Source: Adineta ricciae (taxonomy: Eukaryota > Rotifera > Eurotatoria > Adinetida > Adinetidae). Taken from it: DNA of 64,000 nucleotides. The position numbers were made by a program, and so were the translations under genes. Below the pieces are notes generated by a model. That model was given only the letters and a program-made list of their open reading frames with translations. It searched no databases and was not told the DNA's origin. The stretch spans positions 9,902-73,901 of the forward strand of contig CAJNOJ010000417.1 of the NCBI GenBank assembly GCA_905250025.1, read 5' to 3'. Position 1 is the stretch's first letter. Each line of letters begins with the position of its first letter. Below are positions 6,541 to 61,583 of the stretch, one piece after another.

Positions 6541-6542
6541 CT

Positions 6543-6594
6543 TACCACCTGATGATCGACTTATTAAACAAAAGTCGAAATCCGGATTGTGGTA
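6543..6594 (+). ncRNA. hammerhead ribozyme-like fold A
   Basis: On the + strand the core CUGAUGA (6549-6555) is exact. Stem I pairs UACCAC (6543-6548) with GUGGUA (6589-6594), six perfect pairs. Stem II pairs GACUU (6558-6562) with AAGUC (6572-6576), directly followed by GAAA (6577-6580). Stem III is minimal, AU-CCGG-AU (6580-6587), and the predicted cleavage site is AUU at 6586-6588. An oddity is two extra bases (UC, 6556-6557) between the core and stem II, which could lower activity or allow an alternative longer stem II. CCCTCA repeats start 17 nt downstream. Very short stem III and a neighbouring C-rich telomere-like tract are the known arrangement in Penelope-like and Terminon retroelements. 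Confidence 0.65.
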
Positions 6595-6610
6595 GTTTAT
6601 ATATTTATAA

Positions 6611-6632
6611 CTCACTCTCACCCTCACCCTCA
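6611..6632 (+). repeat. CCCTCA telomere-like tract 1
   Basis: About 3.5 units of CTCACC/CTCACT immediately downstream of hammerhead-like fold A. The C-rich strand reads left to right, as expected if the chromosome terminus lies to the left. The tract joins at 6633 to a 5'-truncated copy of a second ribozyme-like fold. Confidence 0.7.
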
Positions 6633-6633
6633 A

Positions 6634-6671
6634 GAATATGGTCGAAACCGGTCATGGCAGCTATTCTCACC
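6634..6671 (+). ncRNA. 3' half of hammerhead ribozyme-like fold B (truncated copy)
   Basis: These 38 bases match 9484-9521 exactly: the 3' arm of stem II, GAAAC, the CGGUC cleavage site, the 3' arm of stem I and the tail leading to CTCACC. The 5' half (core and stem I left arm) is absent, and a CCCTCA tract abuts the break. This is the structure expected if a broken element end was re-capped. Confidence 0.7.
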
Positions 6672-7779
6672 ACTGCTACCCAGGCCAAGGTCGCCCGGCC
6701 GTAAACGACCGTATACACATGATTTACGACGAAAAACGGTGGCTGCTTACAGTGATCGTCTAAGACAGTCGTTTACGGTGTTTTACGGTATAGTACGATC
6801 AGCGTAAACAGTTATCGTGAACGTTTACCGTCTACGACTATCGTAACTGAGTACGATGACTGTAAACGGCAGCCGAATTGTATCGTAAAATGTCGTAAAC
6901 GTCATATGTAAATACTGCAATATACACTCATCGTTCCTCACCGTATCCGACCGTAAACAGTCGTTTACGATAATGAAATAAACATTCTATCAAATATAAC
7001 TAATGAAATCAAGATTTTGTCTCTACAAGACTTGAGTCTTTTCCTATAATACTTCTCAAATTTCGTAAAATAAGGAAAATTTTCAGAAAATCTTCTGAGG
7101 TCAATACGACTCTTTATCCTTTGTAGCCTACACAAATACACTCTTTGGATTTTCTATTAACAGATCAACCAAACAAAAACTACTAATTTCAAATTTTCTT
7201 ACTAAAAATTTTTGTTTGGTTGCACAGTTATTGAATCATCTTATTCTCTATCGCATAATCGTTATATCTTCCCTTTTCTGAGAAAATGTTTTCGCAATTT
7301 CATCTTCATCGTTATACCATGATGAAATAATAACACACATCAATAACTGTACACCAAAATACCATAAACACATTGAATGTTATTTTTGCCATATACAACA
7401 TCCAAAAAACTATCAATCAGATGAACTTTCGACCGAGATCGTGGTCGTCGTTCATTCAGTTAACATATGTTTCAATTACTCAGTATAGCTTCACCATTTC
7501 CGAAAAAGCATCCTCAACGCCATATGAATAAAAATACCAACACTAGTATATATCAAAGGGTCTAGCAATATTTTTTATGAAGAACTTCAAATCCGCACTC
7601 GGTTCAGATTCTATTCACTTCTTTGTTTCGCGTGCATTGGCCTATATAAGTGGCTATATTCTTTAAAAACGAAGTGAAAAATTGTTCGCAAGCGTGTGTA
7701 ATCGTTTTGGACTTATGTGATACATTGCATCCAATTTTGATACTTCCGCAGAATTTGAGTAAAATCTTGATCAGATCTA

Positions 7780-7992
7780 GTGAAATTCTGTTGAAATCCC
7801 GATGAAATCCTGGAGAAATCCTGATGAAATCCTGTTGAAATCCAGGTGAATTCCTGATGAAATCCTGGAGAAGTCCTGGAGAAATCCTGAAGAAATCCTG
7901 AAGAAATCCTGAAGAAATCCTGGAGAAATCCTGAAGAAATCCTGAAGAAATCCTGAAGAAATCCTGGTGAAATCCAGGTGAAATTCTAATGA
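7780..7992. repeat. 12-bp minisatellite GAAATCCTGAAG
   Basis: About 17 tandem units of a 12-bp repeat (consensus GAAATCCTGAAG, with T/G variants) inside the CGTAAACG element. Because 12 is a multiple of three it gives a spurious open frame of ISSGFLQDF repeats on the minus strand. Confidence 0.85.
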
Positions 7993-8904
7993 ATCTTCAG
8001 TGCAATCCTTGCCTTTCGTGCAATAATTGTAAAATTGAAAAGAGTCAAACAAAATATGATTCCATTCTAGTCGCCATTTTGAAGTTCTTTCGAATATTTG
8101 TTGCGTTCACAGCGACTTCGATTCCTTTCCTATCGACGAACCATGCCTTATATTAATTAACCCCCTTCGTTGGTTACTTATTGACTTATACGATATATCC
8201 CTTTTTATGGAAAGACTTCTTTCAACATTAAATGGTTATTGATTTAAATATATTACTAATATCATATTTCGTAACACTATTTTACCATCAGAGAGGATAT
8301 CGCAAGTGCTAAGAGCACCTAACTCAAATCCATCTAGATTTCTATACTCACCATATAAACTTCCAAAGCAAAATCATTTCTACCATCTGCATAATATATC
8401 ACCTCTGCCCATCAAAAGTTCAAATACACGCGTCAATATTGATATTTCTTCGAGTGTAGTGTTTATTGCATACAAGAAACGATTTCTGAATATCCAACTG
8501 AGCAACGCCATGGATATTCTGATGCGCCTCAAAAATCCCTTACTCATGAGTCTCTACCTGTTCACAGTTCCGGCTTGTTCAAGTATCCACTAACCTTTGG
8601 CGACTACAGTTTCGCCCAAACATACGTTTAGCGAAGTCCTACTTAAACAACATTTCACAGATCACACAAGAAGTTTTCATGTAATCACCATAATAGATAA
8701 GAAATATATACACTAGCCTTCGATCCTATAAGTACCTCTTCACTTTATAAACTTCTTTACTCCTCAGCGAAACTGCAAAAATTGAAATACACGAAATCTG
8801 GATTTTGTCCAGATTATATTCACCTTTTTGTTTTTGCTGAAATTGGCCTATATAAGTAAATAGATCTTTTGCATATGAAATGCAAAAAAGATCTCCACAA
8901 ATAG

Positions 8905-9012
8905 TGAAAACCTAGCGAAATCCTAATGAAATGCTAATGAAATCCTAGTGAAATCCTAATGAAAACCTGGTGACATCCTAGAGAAATATTAGTGAAATCC
9001 TGGTGAAATTTA
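8905..9012. repeat. second, diverged array of the same 12-bp minisatellite
   Basis: About 8-9 degenerate units (GAAATCCTAATG type). Both arrays are preceded by the same diverged ~70-bp segment containing ATTGGCCTATATAAGT (near 7637 and 8833), so the segment plus array has been duplicated within the element. Confidence 0.75.
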
Positions 9013-9464
9013 GTGAATTGTTTTTGGAATTACGAAGATCACGGTTTTTTACGGCCGGTTACGGTCGGATGCGATGGAAAACCGCACGTATACTGTCGTT
9101 TTTGGCGCAATACGCCACCGTAAACGACCCATATTTCATGGTAAACGCTGTTCGTATTTCGACGTATACGGCCGTAATACGGCGCATACCAAACGGGTTA
9201 TTTACGGGCCGTATACGACCGTATTTTGAACGGTTACGGGCGTTAACGTCAACGTGCACGGCCGTATACGGGCGTTTACGATCGTAGTATTGATTGGCCT
9301 GGGTAGAGATAAATCTGTCATTATAAGTTGAAATTTGTTCAAAATTTTCGATTTTGAATAAAATTTTGATTTATAACAGTGCAAATGTATTAGATTTGAT
9401 TTAATTTATATGATTTTAGCTATTTTAATTAAAATTTTATGTTTTGAATCATTTTTAGTATTAA

Positions 9465-9508
9465 GCCATTTGATAAGACCATTGAATATGGTCGAAACCG
9501 GTCATGGC
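9465..9508 (+). ncRNA. hammerhead ribozyme-like fold B (complete fold, core with two changes)
   Basis: Stem I pairs GCCAU (9465-9469) with AUGGC (9504-9508). The core reads UUGAUAA (9470-9476) where CUGAUGA is canonical. Stem II pairs GACCAU (9477-9482) with AUGGUC (9488-9493) around a 5-nt loop, followed by GAAA (9494-9497). Stem III is minimal (A-C-CG-G-U) and the cleavage triplet is GUC at 9501-9503. All three stems pair perfectly while the core has two substitutions, which suggests an inactivated copy. A CCCTCA tract begins 8 nt downstream. About 155 bp of AT-rich sequence lies between the CGTAAACG element and the fold. Confidence 0.65.
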
Positions 9509-9515
9509 AGCTATT

Positions 9516-9532
9516 CTCACCCTCACCCTCAC
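9516..9532 (+). repeat. CCCTCA telomere-like tract 2, fused to a broken piggyBac gene
   Basis: Nearly three units of CTCACC between hammerhead-like fold B and the interior of a piggyBac transposase frame, which begins at 9532 without any start codon. Orientation again fits a chromosome end lying to the left. Confidence 0.75.
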
Positions 9533-9875
9533 AAATCTTTGAAAAGTATGGAAGTCAACAACATTCAAGAAGAGGTCGACCTTCTGTGAACAAACCACTC
9601 CGATTGACGGCTCGTCATTTTCCAGCACTAACCGGTGGAGGAAAACGACGATGTATTGTCTGTAGCACAACTGTCAAACGACCAAAAAAACAGTCTCGTA
9701 CTAGATATGAATGTTCAGATTGCAATGTAGGTTTATGCATTCCGAATTGTTTTCGAGAATATCATACTCTAAAGTCATATTAATAAACCTGAATGAAAGT
9801 TAGAATCATTTGATTCTTGAACTTTGATTTTTGTATTTTTTTTCAAAAAAAATAATCCCGTCCTGAAAGGGTTAA
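9532..9875 (+). mobile_element. piggyBac transposon, 3' remnant with terminal repeat and TTAA
   Basis: An open frame from 9532 to TAA at 9781-9783 encodes the C-terminal cysteine-rich domain of piggyBac transposases. It contains CIVCSTT, then RTRYECSDCNVGLCIPNCFREYH, a CxxC/CxxC zinc-binding layout that recognises the transposon ends. Catalytic domains are missing: the frame is cut at its 5' side by the CCCTCA tract. Downstream lies CCCGTCCTGAAAGGG (9857-9871) followed by TTAA (9872-9875), matching the CCC...GGG ends and TTAA target of piggyBac. The right end therefore looks intact and the left part was lost in the event that placed the telomere-like repeat. Confidence 0.8.
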
Positions 9876-10122: not shown

Positions 10123-12647
10123 TTACATGTATGTCCTTTTTATATCTCGCGAACATGGTCTCCGTAACACTTTTATTATCGTTCTATTCTTCAGTTGAAA
10201 ATTTTCAAACACTTCTTCAATATCTTCTAGTAAGACTCCTTTCGTTTCTGGACAGAAAAGATAGACAAATACTACAGCTAATAAACACAGGCCACTGAAA
10301 AGATAAAATACTCCATGTATTCCTAATGGAGTTATTAACTCCAACATATAAGACATAAGCATACCCAAAAACCAATCACCTGCTGTCGTTATTGAAACAG
10401 CTCTAGCTCTCACATTAAGAGGAAAAATCTCAGCCGCATAAATCCAAGCGACTGGTCCCCAGGAAAGTGCATAACTAGCTACAAACACAACTGTAAAAAT
10501 AAGCATTAATACACCAGAACTTGTTTTGCAATTTATAGTTTCTTCATTCACCGTAGTGTCATTAATAATAGTTTTCACTACATTGCAACCTGTGACAAAT
10601 AGCGTTGCTGATACAAAATGGCCCACTATCATACCTAAGCCACAGTATAGAAGAAGTTTTCGACGTCCTAGTCTATCAAATAAGAATAATGCTGGAATTG
10701 TACTTAACATATTTGCACCAGATAAAATCAATAATGATATGATACCCTTTCCAATAATACTTTCGAAAATGATACCACCAAATACAAATATAATATTAAT
10801 ACCTGATAGTTGTAAAAAAGCGTGTACGCCGACACCTATACCGAGCCTTTGAAGCATTTTCTTTGTTGTAAATAGTTCTTTGATTGAAACTTCATTACCC
10901 TCTTCTCGTATTGCATTCGCAATAGCGTCTAATTCAGCAGTTACATCGTCAATTTTACGAATGCGTTTCAAACTTTTCTCTGCTGATTCTCGACCTTTTT
11001 CCTTGAATAACCATCGAGGAGTTTCAGGACAGAAAAATATACCCATCATAATAATAAGTGGTGCAATTAAAATAACTCCATTTGATAATCGCCAACCCCA
11101 TTTATGATCTTGTAAAAAAAAATTTACCACATTAGCAGCAAACAAACCAAGTACTATAGTCATTTGCATAAAGCCAGAAAGCATTCCACGTAAATTTGTT
11201 GGAGCTATTTCTGAAGCATATGGGCATGTCCACGTAAAGTGACACTTCACTGATCAGGTTTTGAAAAATTTTTTTTTCAATAACAGCGTTTCTAAATACT
11301 GTTTCAGATGTAGTTTTTAGCGCTGATTACGAATCTGACGTTTATTTTGTTCGTAGTCGACTTTTTTCTCTAAGAAAATATTTTTCAAGCTTTTTCATAA
11401 TCGTATTTTGGGTGGTCTCAGCAAAAAATCTCCTTAAAACATGTTCTTTTACATGTCATTCGATGCAGAATTTGATTCTCTACAAAATGACATATTAAGG
11501 TTTGGGTTTTGTAGCAAAAGGCGATTTATCAGTTCCTTTCAAGTTCTCGACTTATTGCTTCTAATATGGGCTTCTACATGAATATATTCATTCCATTTCC
11601 AGGTATAAATCATCACAATACCGAGTAGACTTACACTTTAAAAAATCACTTCATTCTAAGCATCCTAAGGATCTGAAAAATGATCAGCAAAAAACTGTGT
11701 CACAACGTTACGAAAAATGTCACAGCGTTACGTTTGTATTTCGTATTTTCTGTACGAAATAAAACAGTAGGAAGAAAATCTTTTTTAGCAACACAAAATC
11801 CTTTGAAAGCTGTACAAAACACTGCTTTCTTATATTTGATTTGAATAGTATCTTATGGAAAAATTAGCAACGAGAGTGATGTAGTGCAAGGTCAGGGTCC
11901 TTTTATGTCACGCTGTTACGCGACACTAAAATGATCGCAGAAATACAAGAGCTCAAGCGAAATCTTTGATTTTTTTATGATTGATAGAGTTTAACGAGCT
12001 GCATCTATGAGCGTTTGAACGAGATCCGTAACTTTTATAGTCTTCGAGAAAATCGAAAAATACTTTGTCAAAATGTCACAACGTTACGTTTGGACAAGCC
12101 GATATAATGGACAAGAAAATGAAGAACATCCAACACCTGCTCCTTCCACAATTCGTCCAATAAGTATAAAAATCATTATCTTTGTTGAACCTCCTGGTGG
12201 AAAAATAACCATTGAAGTACCAATTATAAAGAGAACGGCTGATGTGAAAATAATGGCTCGACGTCCATATTTTTCTGCTATAAATGAAGAAATGAAGAGA
12301 GCACCAAGAGAACATCCAACATTATATAGTAACGTAAAGAGCACTAAAAACCTTCTGTAATCAGAAGGTAAACCAGCTACTGACAGATCGCAAACGCTTG
12401 CATTTCCATATACACCAATACAGAAGTCATTTTTAAATGAACTCATAACAACTATACCACCTGTAACACCTTGATCATAACCCAAAAACCATCCACCTAA
12501 TGAAGAAAAGGCAGCTAATAATACAGCAACATGTGGCTTTCCGTAATGAACATTCTTGTGATGATGATTATGAGACACTTCTGTTCCAGATCCCATCGAC
12601 ATTTTGTTGATATATTGGCCAGATTCAGCTACAGATTCTAGTGACAT
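10123..12647 (-). pseudogene. MFS hexose-type transporter split by a transposon
   Basis: Two pieces form one sugar porter of about 545 residues with 12 predicted membrane spans. The N-terminal piece (12647 down to about 12102) has FLGYDQGVTGG in TM1, EKYGRRA in loop 2-3 and GRIVEGAGVG. The C-terminal piece (11221 down to 10123) has ASEIAPTNLRG, PETPRWLFKEKGR, LQLSGIN in TM7, DRLGRRK, WGPVAWIYAAEIFP in TM10 and FCPETKG. Such carriers move monosaccharides across the plasma membrane, by facilitation or proton symport. GYDQGV and the TM10 string resemble fungal and plant monosaccharide transporters more than animal GLUTs, so horizontal origin is possible. The frame is continuous across the 4-bp ATAT target site. 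An 880-bp element interrupts the coding sequence, so this allele should not give full-length protein. Confidence 0.85.
11222..12101. mobile_element. 880-bp non-autonomous DNA transposon inserted in the sugar transporter
   Basis: Flanked by ATAT on both sides (11218-11221 and 12102-12105). Imperfect terminal inverted repeats start GGGCATGTCCACG on the left and CGGCTTGTCCAAACG on the right (complement). TGTCACAACGTTACG-like motifs recur at both ends and internally (11699, 11724, 11907, 12073). No transposase is encoded. Superfamily not assigned: the target duplication is 3-4 bp and partly palindromic. Confidence 0.8.
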
Positions 12648-52440: not shown

Positions 52441-52467
52441 TCACCCTCACCCTCACCCTCACCCTCA
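52441..52467 (+). repeat. CCCTCA telomere-like tract 3
   Basis: Four perfect CACCCT/CCCTCA units, same orientation as the tracts at 6.6 and 9.5 kb, ending CCCTCAAG at 52469. No hammerhead core was found upstream, although a degraded one cannot be excluded. Confidence 0.75.
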
Positions 52468-53093
52468 AGATGGTGGCGTATCCTGGTGGTAGGCATTGCG
52501 CAGTTACCCAATAGTTAAAAATTGATATACTTGCATATTGTGAAACTTAAATGAATTTATTTTCCCGCTGACTGCTGTTGAAATATAATCAAAGAATAGA
52601 GCGACATCCAAATAAAGAAAAATGCTCTTATCGCTCAAAGCCATATATTTGGAAGGAAAGAAGAAAATTTGACAATCTTCGGTTACGGCCCACGTTTCAA
52701 AATAATTTTGCTGGGGACTGGCCCAATACTCAAAATATACTGATTACGCCACTGCTTCTAAATATTTTGTGACTAACAAGATGGCTGAATCACTTGCAGA
52801 AGGCTGCAAGTTTTACATTTTGTTGAAAGAGAGAGAAAGAGACACTATGACTCAAATAGTTTATTCTCATGAAAAACATTTTTGCATCATCGACCTTGAG
52901 AGATATCTTTATTTTTTCACGGAAAATTCTTTCTCAATTTATCTGTGTGAAGAATGTTCTTTTATTTAATGATACACTTAAGTTTTTATCTCTTATTCTT
53001 ACAACAAAAAATAGGAAGTGGAGTTCTTATTTAAACTGAGTTAAAGTTGTTTTTCGATACACACTAGAAGAATAAGAAAAAGAAGTAAAAGTC
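52468..53093. other. noncoding upstream of the protease, nothing recognised
   Basis: AT-rich. No exon supported. Contains the promoter of the protease by position. Confidence 0.35.
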
Positions 53094-61129: not shown

Positions 61130-61583
61130 CATCCGGTTCATTTTCACCCAAACTAATCCATTAATTTTCACTCATACTAATGCGTCCGTTTTGACTCACC
61201 CTATTCCAACCACATTTTCACGAGTACCCAAACGCATCCACCTGTTGATACCTATCGAGCTCATTTTTACACACAACCACCCATTTGCCCTGAATTTCAA
61301 CCGACACCAACTAATCTCCCCCCACACCAATCGCCCAGCTGATTTTCAATGGCACCCACTCATCTACGCCCACACAAACCCATCTCTACTCACAACCGCT
61401 CACCCAGCTCAGTTTCAACCACACCCACCCATCTCTACCAACATCCGGTCACCGAGCTTATTTACATTCCCACCAACACCCAGTCGCCCAGCTGATTTTC
61501 ACCCACATCCTCACCCTCACCCCACACCCCACCCTCACACCCGCCACCCTCACCCTCACCCTCACACCCCTCACCCTGGTCTG
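61130..61583 (+). repeat. long C-rich, almost G-free tract ending in CCCTCA repeats (telomere-like tract 5)
   Basis: About 450 bp in which the + strand is rich in C, A and T and very poor in G. It starts with degenerate minisatellite units of about 60-75 bp containing CCCAGCTGATTTTCA and CACCCACTCATCTAC. From about 61504 it becomes CACCCT/CCCTCA/CACACC repeats, and at about 61583 it runs straight into a broken piggyBac frame. Same orientation as the other tracts. Confidence 0.75.

Follow-up and report, generated by a model that had tools for sequence, protein, structure and literature searches.

Terminons are endonuclease-deficient Penelope-like elements (PLEs) of bdelloid rotifers (PMC6431247); according to the accessible text of that paper, their 3' end consists of a hammerhead and, after it, (ACACCC)n or (TCACCC)n, which pairs with G-rich chromosome ends, and most copies are 5'-truncated by telomeric repeats. 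Endonuclease-deficient PLEs may prime at deprotected telomeres or at double-strand breaks (PMC3846280). The published bdelloid telomeric repeat is TGTGGG (PMC7943196), and in A. vaga TERT reportedly could not be found (PMC5405514). The window, i.e., the whole stretch of 64,000 nucleotides of Adineta ricciae analysed here, carries a hammerhead-like fold (9465-9508), a CCCTCA tract (9516-9531) and, from 9532, a headless piggyBac gene, all three in the order given in the original prediction. The locus shares with Terminons and Athena elements (Arkhipova et al. 2017; Gladyshev and Arkhipova 2007; via PMC6431247) a 3' hammerhead followed by TCACCC/ACACCC repeats, copies truncated by telomeric repeats, a reverse transcriptase (RT), read as PLE type, upstream in related families, and the capture of sequence between neighbouring elements. 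It differs from them in that the window copy, which abuts a broken piggyBac gene, is a short 3' fragment lacking an RT, that several families share a U3-A8 core, and that one family (five copies) has the divergent core UCGUAAA. We consider it probable that the locus is the 3' end of an Athena/Terminon-type endonuclease-deficient PLE, attached via a short TGAGGG tract to a chromosome broken within piggyBac. The proposal that an element attaching to telomeres was joined by telomere-like repeats to a gene that had broken fits both this anatomy and the published Terminon model as far as the available text gives it (PMC6431247, PMC3846280); the locus belongs to a known kind of element, and its compensated core, itself a known variant, is frequent in this genome.

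The piggyBac-type remnant (9532-9783, + strand) comprises the last 83 codons plus stop, with the C-terminal zinc finger. Its frame opens abruptly at codon 9532 (QIFEKYG...LKSY), leaving 83 of 575 codons when compared with an intact piggyBac transposase of the same genome (L029), so that the tract is indeed fused inside a piggyBac frame, as had been proposed. Of the 83 residues, 66 are identical to this intact 575-residue copy, whose first 492 codons are absent from the window. Among transposase domains, Pfam recognised only the zf-Tnp_2 zinc finger in the remnant (a C1_2 match fell below the cut-off) and did not find the DDE_Tnp_1_7 catalytic domain there; L029 has both the DDE domain and the zinc finger. 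An uncapped piggyBac allele, proposed as something to look for, was not found in the genome, the best other match to the flanking gene, a sugar transporter (Pfam Sugar_tr), being 72% at most over its length. About 0.9 kb (11220-12110) interrupts the Sugar_tr frame, and the 40 bp at its left end have matches (88-100%) in 13 other places; to judge from these matches it may be a transposon insertion. Another piggyBac remnant (L045, 8939-9607) lies near a different hammerhead copy and ends about 200 nt upstream of it.

On the other side of the joint, the 3' end of the element and its tract (9509-9531, + strand) consist of a 7-nt spacer (AGCTATT) and CTCAC, leading into CTCACCCTCACCCTCA (9516-9531; TGAGGG on the G strand). 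The rest of the 3' part of the element occupies 9307-9464 (+ strand), and in the longer matches homology to other copies starts at 9360-9395, leaving 9307-9359 outside it. Only this short 3' part of an element is present; no RT adjoins the copy (9465), which counts against its identification as a Terminon. Directly 5' of it lies a putative DNA transposon (6676-9306, no strand assigned) with 13-bp terminal inverted repeats (CTACCCAGGCCAA), around which no target duplication was seen and which includes 11-bp tandem repeats of the GAAATCCTGAA type at 7782-7975 and 8902-9017; the 5' side of the copy thus meets this putative transposon and not telomeric repeats. Further upstream, a 38-nt hammerhead stub (6634-6671, + strand), 100% identical to 9484-9521, ends inside the ribozyme and is joined to a preceding telomere-like tract, CTCACTCTCACCCTCACCCTCAA (6611-6633, + strand). 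The same 5' truncation inside the ribozyme by telomere-like repeats was found at L087. A second hammerhead-like sequence (6543-6594, + strand; CUGAUGA, UCCGGA) with an irregular core register is covered by a 24.6-bit match spanning 6541-6673 and may represent the 3' terminus of a second element on the distal side. Elsewhere in the window, a degenerate TCACCC/ACACCC array was seen at 61507-61577, with no hammerhead recognised there. A sequence of events compatible with this layout would begin with a chromosome break inside the piggyBac gene, after which the exposed 3' end would have gained about two TGAGGG repeats; Terminon RNA, with a 3' end formed by the hammerhead and CUCAC(CC), would then have paired with the G-rich end and been copied on by its own reverse transcriptase, as in the published model, and further attachments and the putative DNA transposon might have been added distally.

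The fold at 9465-9508 (+ strand) comprises stem I (GCCAU/AUGGC, 5 bp), the core UUGAUAA, stem II (GACCAU..AUGGUC, 6 bp), GAAA and a palindromic stem III (CCGG), followed by UC and AUGGC; cleavage is predicted after GUC (9503). It presents three helices around a conserved core with the 3-8 pair, GAAA and a cleavable NUH, stem III being formed only in trans. All three stems had been described as pairing perfectly, which holds for stems I and II; stem III remains open in the single-strand fold prediction, where CCGG has no loop, and is predicted to be able to pair only between two RNA copies. The two-strand prediction pairs ACCGGU in trans, at -34.9 kcal/mol against -28.8 kcal/mol for two monomers in the window. 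Such trans pairing of stem III was predicted in three of five families (the window, L010 and L085), and other duplexes were predicted for L072 and L026. The core does read UUGAUAA in place of CUGAUGA; the defect suspected from this finds no support, since the change is double, C3-G8 to U3-A8, and keeps the 3-8 pair. C3 and G8 pair; several natural hammerheads have U3 and A8 by covariation instead, and such ribozymes had been shown to be active in vitro (Perreault et al. 2011, PMC3088659, in the part accessible); the 3-8 pair is also named in PMC2837043. A dead core was therefore rejected: both partners of this tertiary pair have changed, they covary, and the variant is known from nature. The window core resembles those hammerheads (PMC3088659) in having U3-A8 for C3-G8, whereas here entire telomere-associated families normally carry U3-A8 (16 of 48 folds). 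Dimeric hammerheads of amphibians and the axolotl (PMC7229834, as far as its accessible text describes them) share the short palindromic helix III and are expected to work better as dimers; in contrast to them, the motif here, a predicted ribozyme, belongs to another class of element and occupies another position. The compensated U3-A8 pair and the palindromic stem III suggest that the ribozyme most likely folds, and may also cleave, as a dimer. By its folding energy it stands out only moderately (z -2.63 over 51 nt; -1.41 when the tract is included). Rfam models, including Hammerhead_1, gave no match to the fold at the gathering score, and in one scan the control genomes gave no signal either; a home-made model (R1) did detect hammerheads where Rfam did not. 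The group of L010 has one additional nucleotide 3' of A9. An additional nucleotide after A9 is tolerated in a viroid ribozyme.

We searched the genome (130.46 Mb, 1033 contigs) for both parts of the joint. The pattern GAAACNNGTCATGGCA gave 55 matches and (CCCTCA)3 gave 87, in each case against 0 for the reversed control, and therefore neither the fold nor the repeat is due to chance. The stretch 9310-9532 had 18 matches, namely itself, the 38-nt stub at 6634 and 16 other loci (71-85% identity), and the flanks of these 16, compared by eye, differ past the tract; the junction is thus not an identical part of one ordinary transposon inserted in many places, the outcome that, together with an unrelated telomere repeat, would have counted as refuting the original prediction. 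Among the parsed sites, flanks were common to only three pairs, as duplicated loci. All 55 pattern sites were read; two duplicate the sequence of a neighbour, leaving 53 distinct sites, and five more were set aside, namely L059 and L061 (chance matches with no fold), L066 (no recognisable 5' side of stem I), and the window stub at 6634 and L087 (cut off inside the ribozyme). The 48 remaining folds have the core CUGAUGA in 16 cases, which confirms that intact cores exist in other copies, UUGAUAA in 16, UCGUAAA in five and other cores in 11, several of which carry changes that, to judge from their letters, should be harmful to catalysis. Positions 3 and 8 are C-G in 25 folds, U-A in 21 and neither in two (one U-G, one C-C), i.e., Watson-Crick in 46 of 48. 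Stem III is palindromic in 43 of 48 (CCGG 18, CTAG 17, CGCG 8), and a telomere-like hexamer follows within 40 nt downstream in 38 of 48. Stem I carries little information in this set because the search pattern fixes its 3' side. Searches without fixed stem I were noisier (C3: 78 matches against 31 in the reversed control; U3: 138 against 59); stem II supports 25 of the 78 C3 matches with C3-G8 and one with C3-A8, and among the U3 matches listed (to C373), 28 rows with GAAAC were picked by eye, five of them with a supported stem II, all U3-A8.

For covariation we used 36 distinct folds (37 minus the chance match L062), in which 95.7% of cells pair, compared with 83.0% in shuffles and at most 53.5% in slid controls. 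Both sides have changed in 33 of the 72 cells that cover the 3-8 pair and the two central positions of stem III, a value matched by none of 500 shuffles and inflated by shared descent. Because the 3-8 pair and stem III covary, the alignment suggests that selection acts at telomere-attaching ends on the ribozyme fold, including its tertiary pair and the dimer contact. The UCGUAAA family (L085, L094, L095, L096, L097; U4C and a missing A6 in the alignment) has intact stems and telomere-like tails, and its fold may have been retained without catalytic activity; its member on C661 has a PLE-type RT 1.4 kb upstream. Near a contig start, L012 carries two hammerheads (1337-1392 and 1511-1554), 174 nt apart from start to start, with the cores CUGAUGA and UUGAUAA.

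The link to Penelope-type RTs was examined with an RT from the same genome, read as PLE type, for which Pfam gives RVT_1 only. This query had 91 matches in the genome, of which we compared 58 that stop short of its C-terminal part, assumed to be the endonuclease side, with 21 that extend into it; the remaining rows were not used, and RT type and endonuclease absence were judged by alignment extent and reading. The 58 matches short of that side have a hammerhead (from the fixed-pattern and C3 searches) within 5 kb downstream on the same strand six times, at five loci (C661, C580 twice, C884, C442 and C632), with the RT 1.2-4.1 kb upstream of it, compared with three hammerheads upstream and one on the opposite strand; the 21 matches with the endonuclease side have none within 5 kb downstream on the same strand. 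All six RT-linked hammerheads are followed by CTCAC or a TCACACCC-type sequence, and C661, C632, C442 and one C580 copy (4 bp) have a good stem I, which is poor in C884 and in the second C580 copy. None of the five RT-linked loci carries a hammerhead of the window's own family, which counts against the Terminon reading. In the stretches examined upstream of other copies, no RVT_1 match was found (150 of 216 candidates scored). Among RVT_1 matches considered by eye as hammerhead partners none adjoined a hammerhead, those upstream on the same strand (C646, C725) lying about 17 kb away. Some copies have an upstream open reading frame in common, which, to judge from its sequence, looks like a coiled coil; the RT on C436, next to a frame common to some elements, was read as not of PLE type, and no hammerhead was present in the two stretches examined there.

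TGAGGG is a telomere-like repeat, and among the matches listed, the literature that pairs it with telomeres is nearly all human or mammalian. In the genome, (CCCACA)3 has 76 matches, nearly as many as the 87 of (CCCTCA)3, and the two are often mixed, which again counts against the Terminon reading; (CCCACA)3 has no usable reversed control, since the repeat is palindromic in reading order (the same backwards). The sites showed no orientation bias toward contig ends (23 of 52, p 0.49), a further point against a Terminon; these 52 sites lie on contigs C246 or higher, and relatives of 9310-9532 also occur on C32, C49, C75 and C193.

In four families the 3' end changes little up to about CTCAC, and the later repeats differ in number and kind; because of this constancy followed by variation within families, the most fitting reading is that the repeats were, for the most part, already on the target end when the element attached. 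A tail of repeats that belonged wholly to the element was considered, and it is weakened by the within-family differences (TCACCC, ACACCC). A related possibility, to which we give clearly less than even weight, is direct attachment with no prior healing, in which the Terminon RNA's own 3' tail (CUCACCCUCACCCUCA) would have paired over a few bases with the broken piggyBac end. It would agree with L083, L090 and L092, which have no further repeat after CTCAC, with the ACA at the piggyBac joint, which is common to intact relatives, and with the priming at double-strand breaks suggested for endonuclease-deficient PLEs (PMC3846280); however, one fixed RNA tail leaves the differences in repeats within families, in both kind (TCACCC, ACACCC) and number, unexplained.

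Hammerhead repeats are known in many invertebrates, rotifers being named among them in the accessible text of PMC7229834, and no RT was found beside the window copy or in the stretches examined upstream of others, so a small non-autonomous, retrozyme-like element with a hammerhead and no relation to telomeres might be envisaged. We regard this as improbable, since the window copy showed no tandem array with a fixed monomer, telomere-like hexamers end 38 of 48 folds, two copies are truncated by such repeats, and PLE-type RTs lie upstream at five loci. An assembly chimaera of two unrelated sequences, for which the fragmented assembly and the single occurrence of the window joint could be cited, is very improbable, as the same type of joint occurs at dozens of loci with structured, family-specific ends. 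The attachment of a Terminon-type 3' end to a broken chromosome is the reading that we retain.

The joints themselves carry a recurrent motif. In the 87 junctions compiled, TCA follows the last CCC in 35, nine of which start TCACAC and were treated as continuing arrays; the other 26 array ends continue with A in 19 cases and with AGA in 11 (CCCTCA-AGA; read CCCTCAAGA; G strand TCTTGAGGG). AGA at 11 of 26 ends compares with about 1.7% expected (p ~2e-13, for a motif picked after inspection), and at one of these 11 ends (6634) the GA comes from the element. TCAATT also recurs, four times, among the array ends; of two ends read later, C884 reads CCCTCAAGAG and C442 does not. Telomere-like arrays ending CCCTCAAGAT before unrelated flanks were seen in the window (52441-52469) and at L002, L003, L005, L010, L013, L060 and L072. 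At 6629-6634 of the window the intact copy (CCATATTC) shows which bases preceded the joint, and what was added there, TTGAGGG, is one repeat plus one T; at the stubs L087 and L015 the added repeats start otherwise than at 6634. Because the AGA motif recurs and the 6634 joint carries TTGAGGG, we tentatively raise the idea, which we hold to be rather doubtful, that the synthesis of repeats begins with pairing at a single position of a fixed RNA template, which would end at about CCCUCAAGAU and could serve a Penelope-type RT if bdelloids lack TERT. A preferred break site was considered as the source of the motif and leaves the 6634 case unexplained, whereas a fixed template start would account for the motif. 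No such junction motif appears in the accessible parts of the rotifer hammerhead and telomere literature compared, a set that lies outside the main Terminon papers, and the motif (11 of 26 array ends) is possibly new.

The locus is a readable scar, in which a recognisable gene cut short, telomere-like DNA and a retroelement stand side by side, in animals known to survive DNA breakage. The junction motif offers a sequence handle on what adds short telomeric repeats in animals in which TERT is reported missing, and if repeat synthesis does start at a fixed template and bdelloids are without TERT, such scars would expose what writes bdelloid telomeres.
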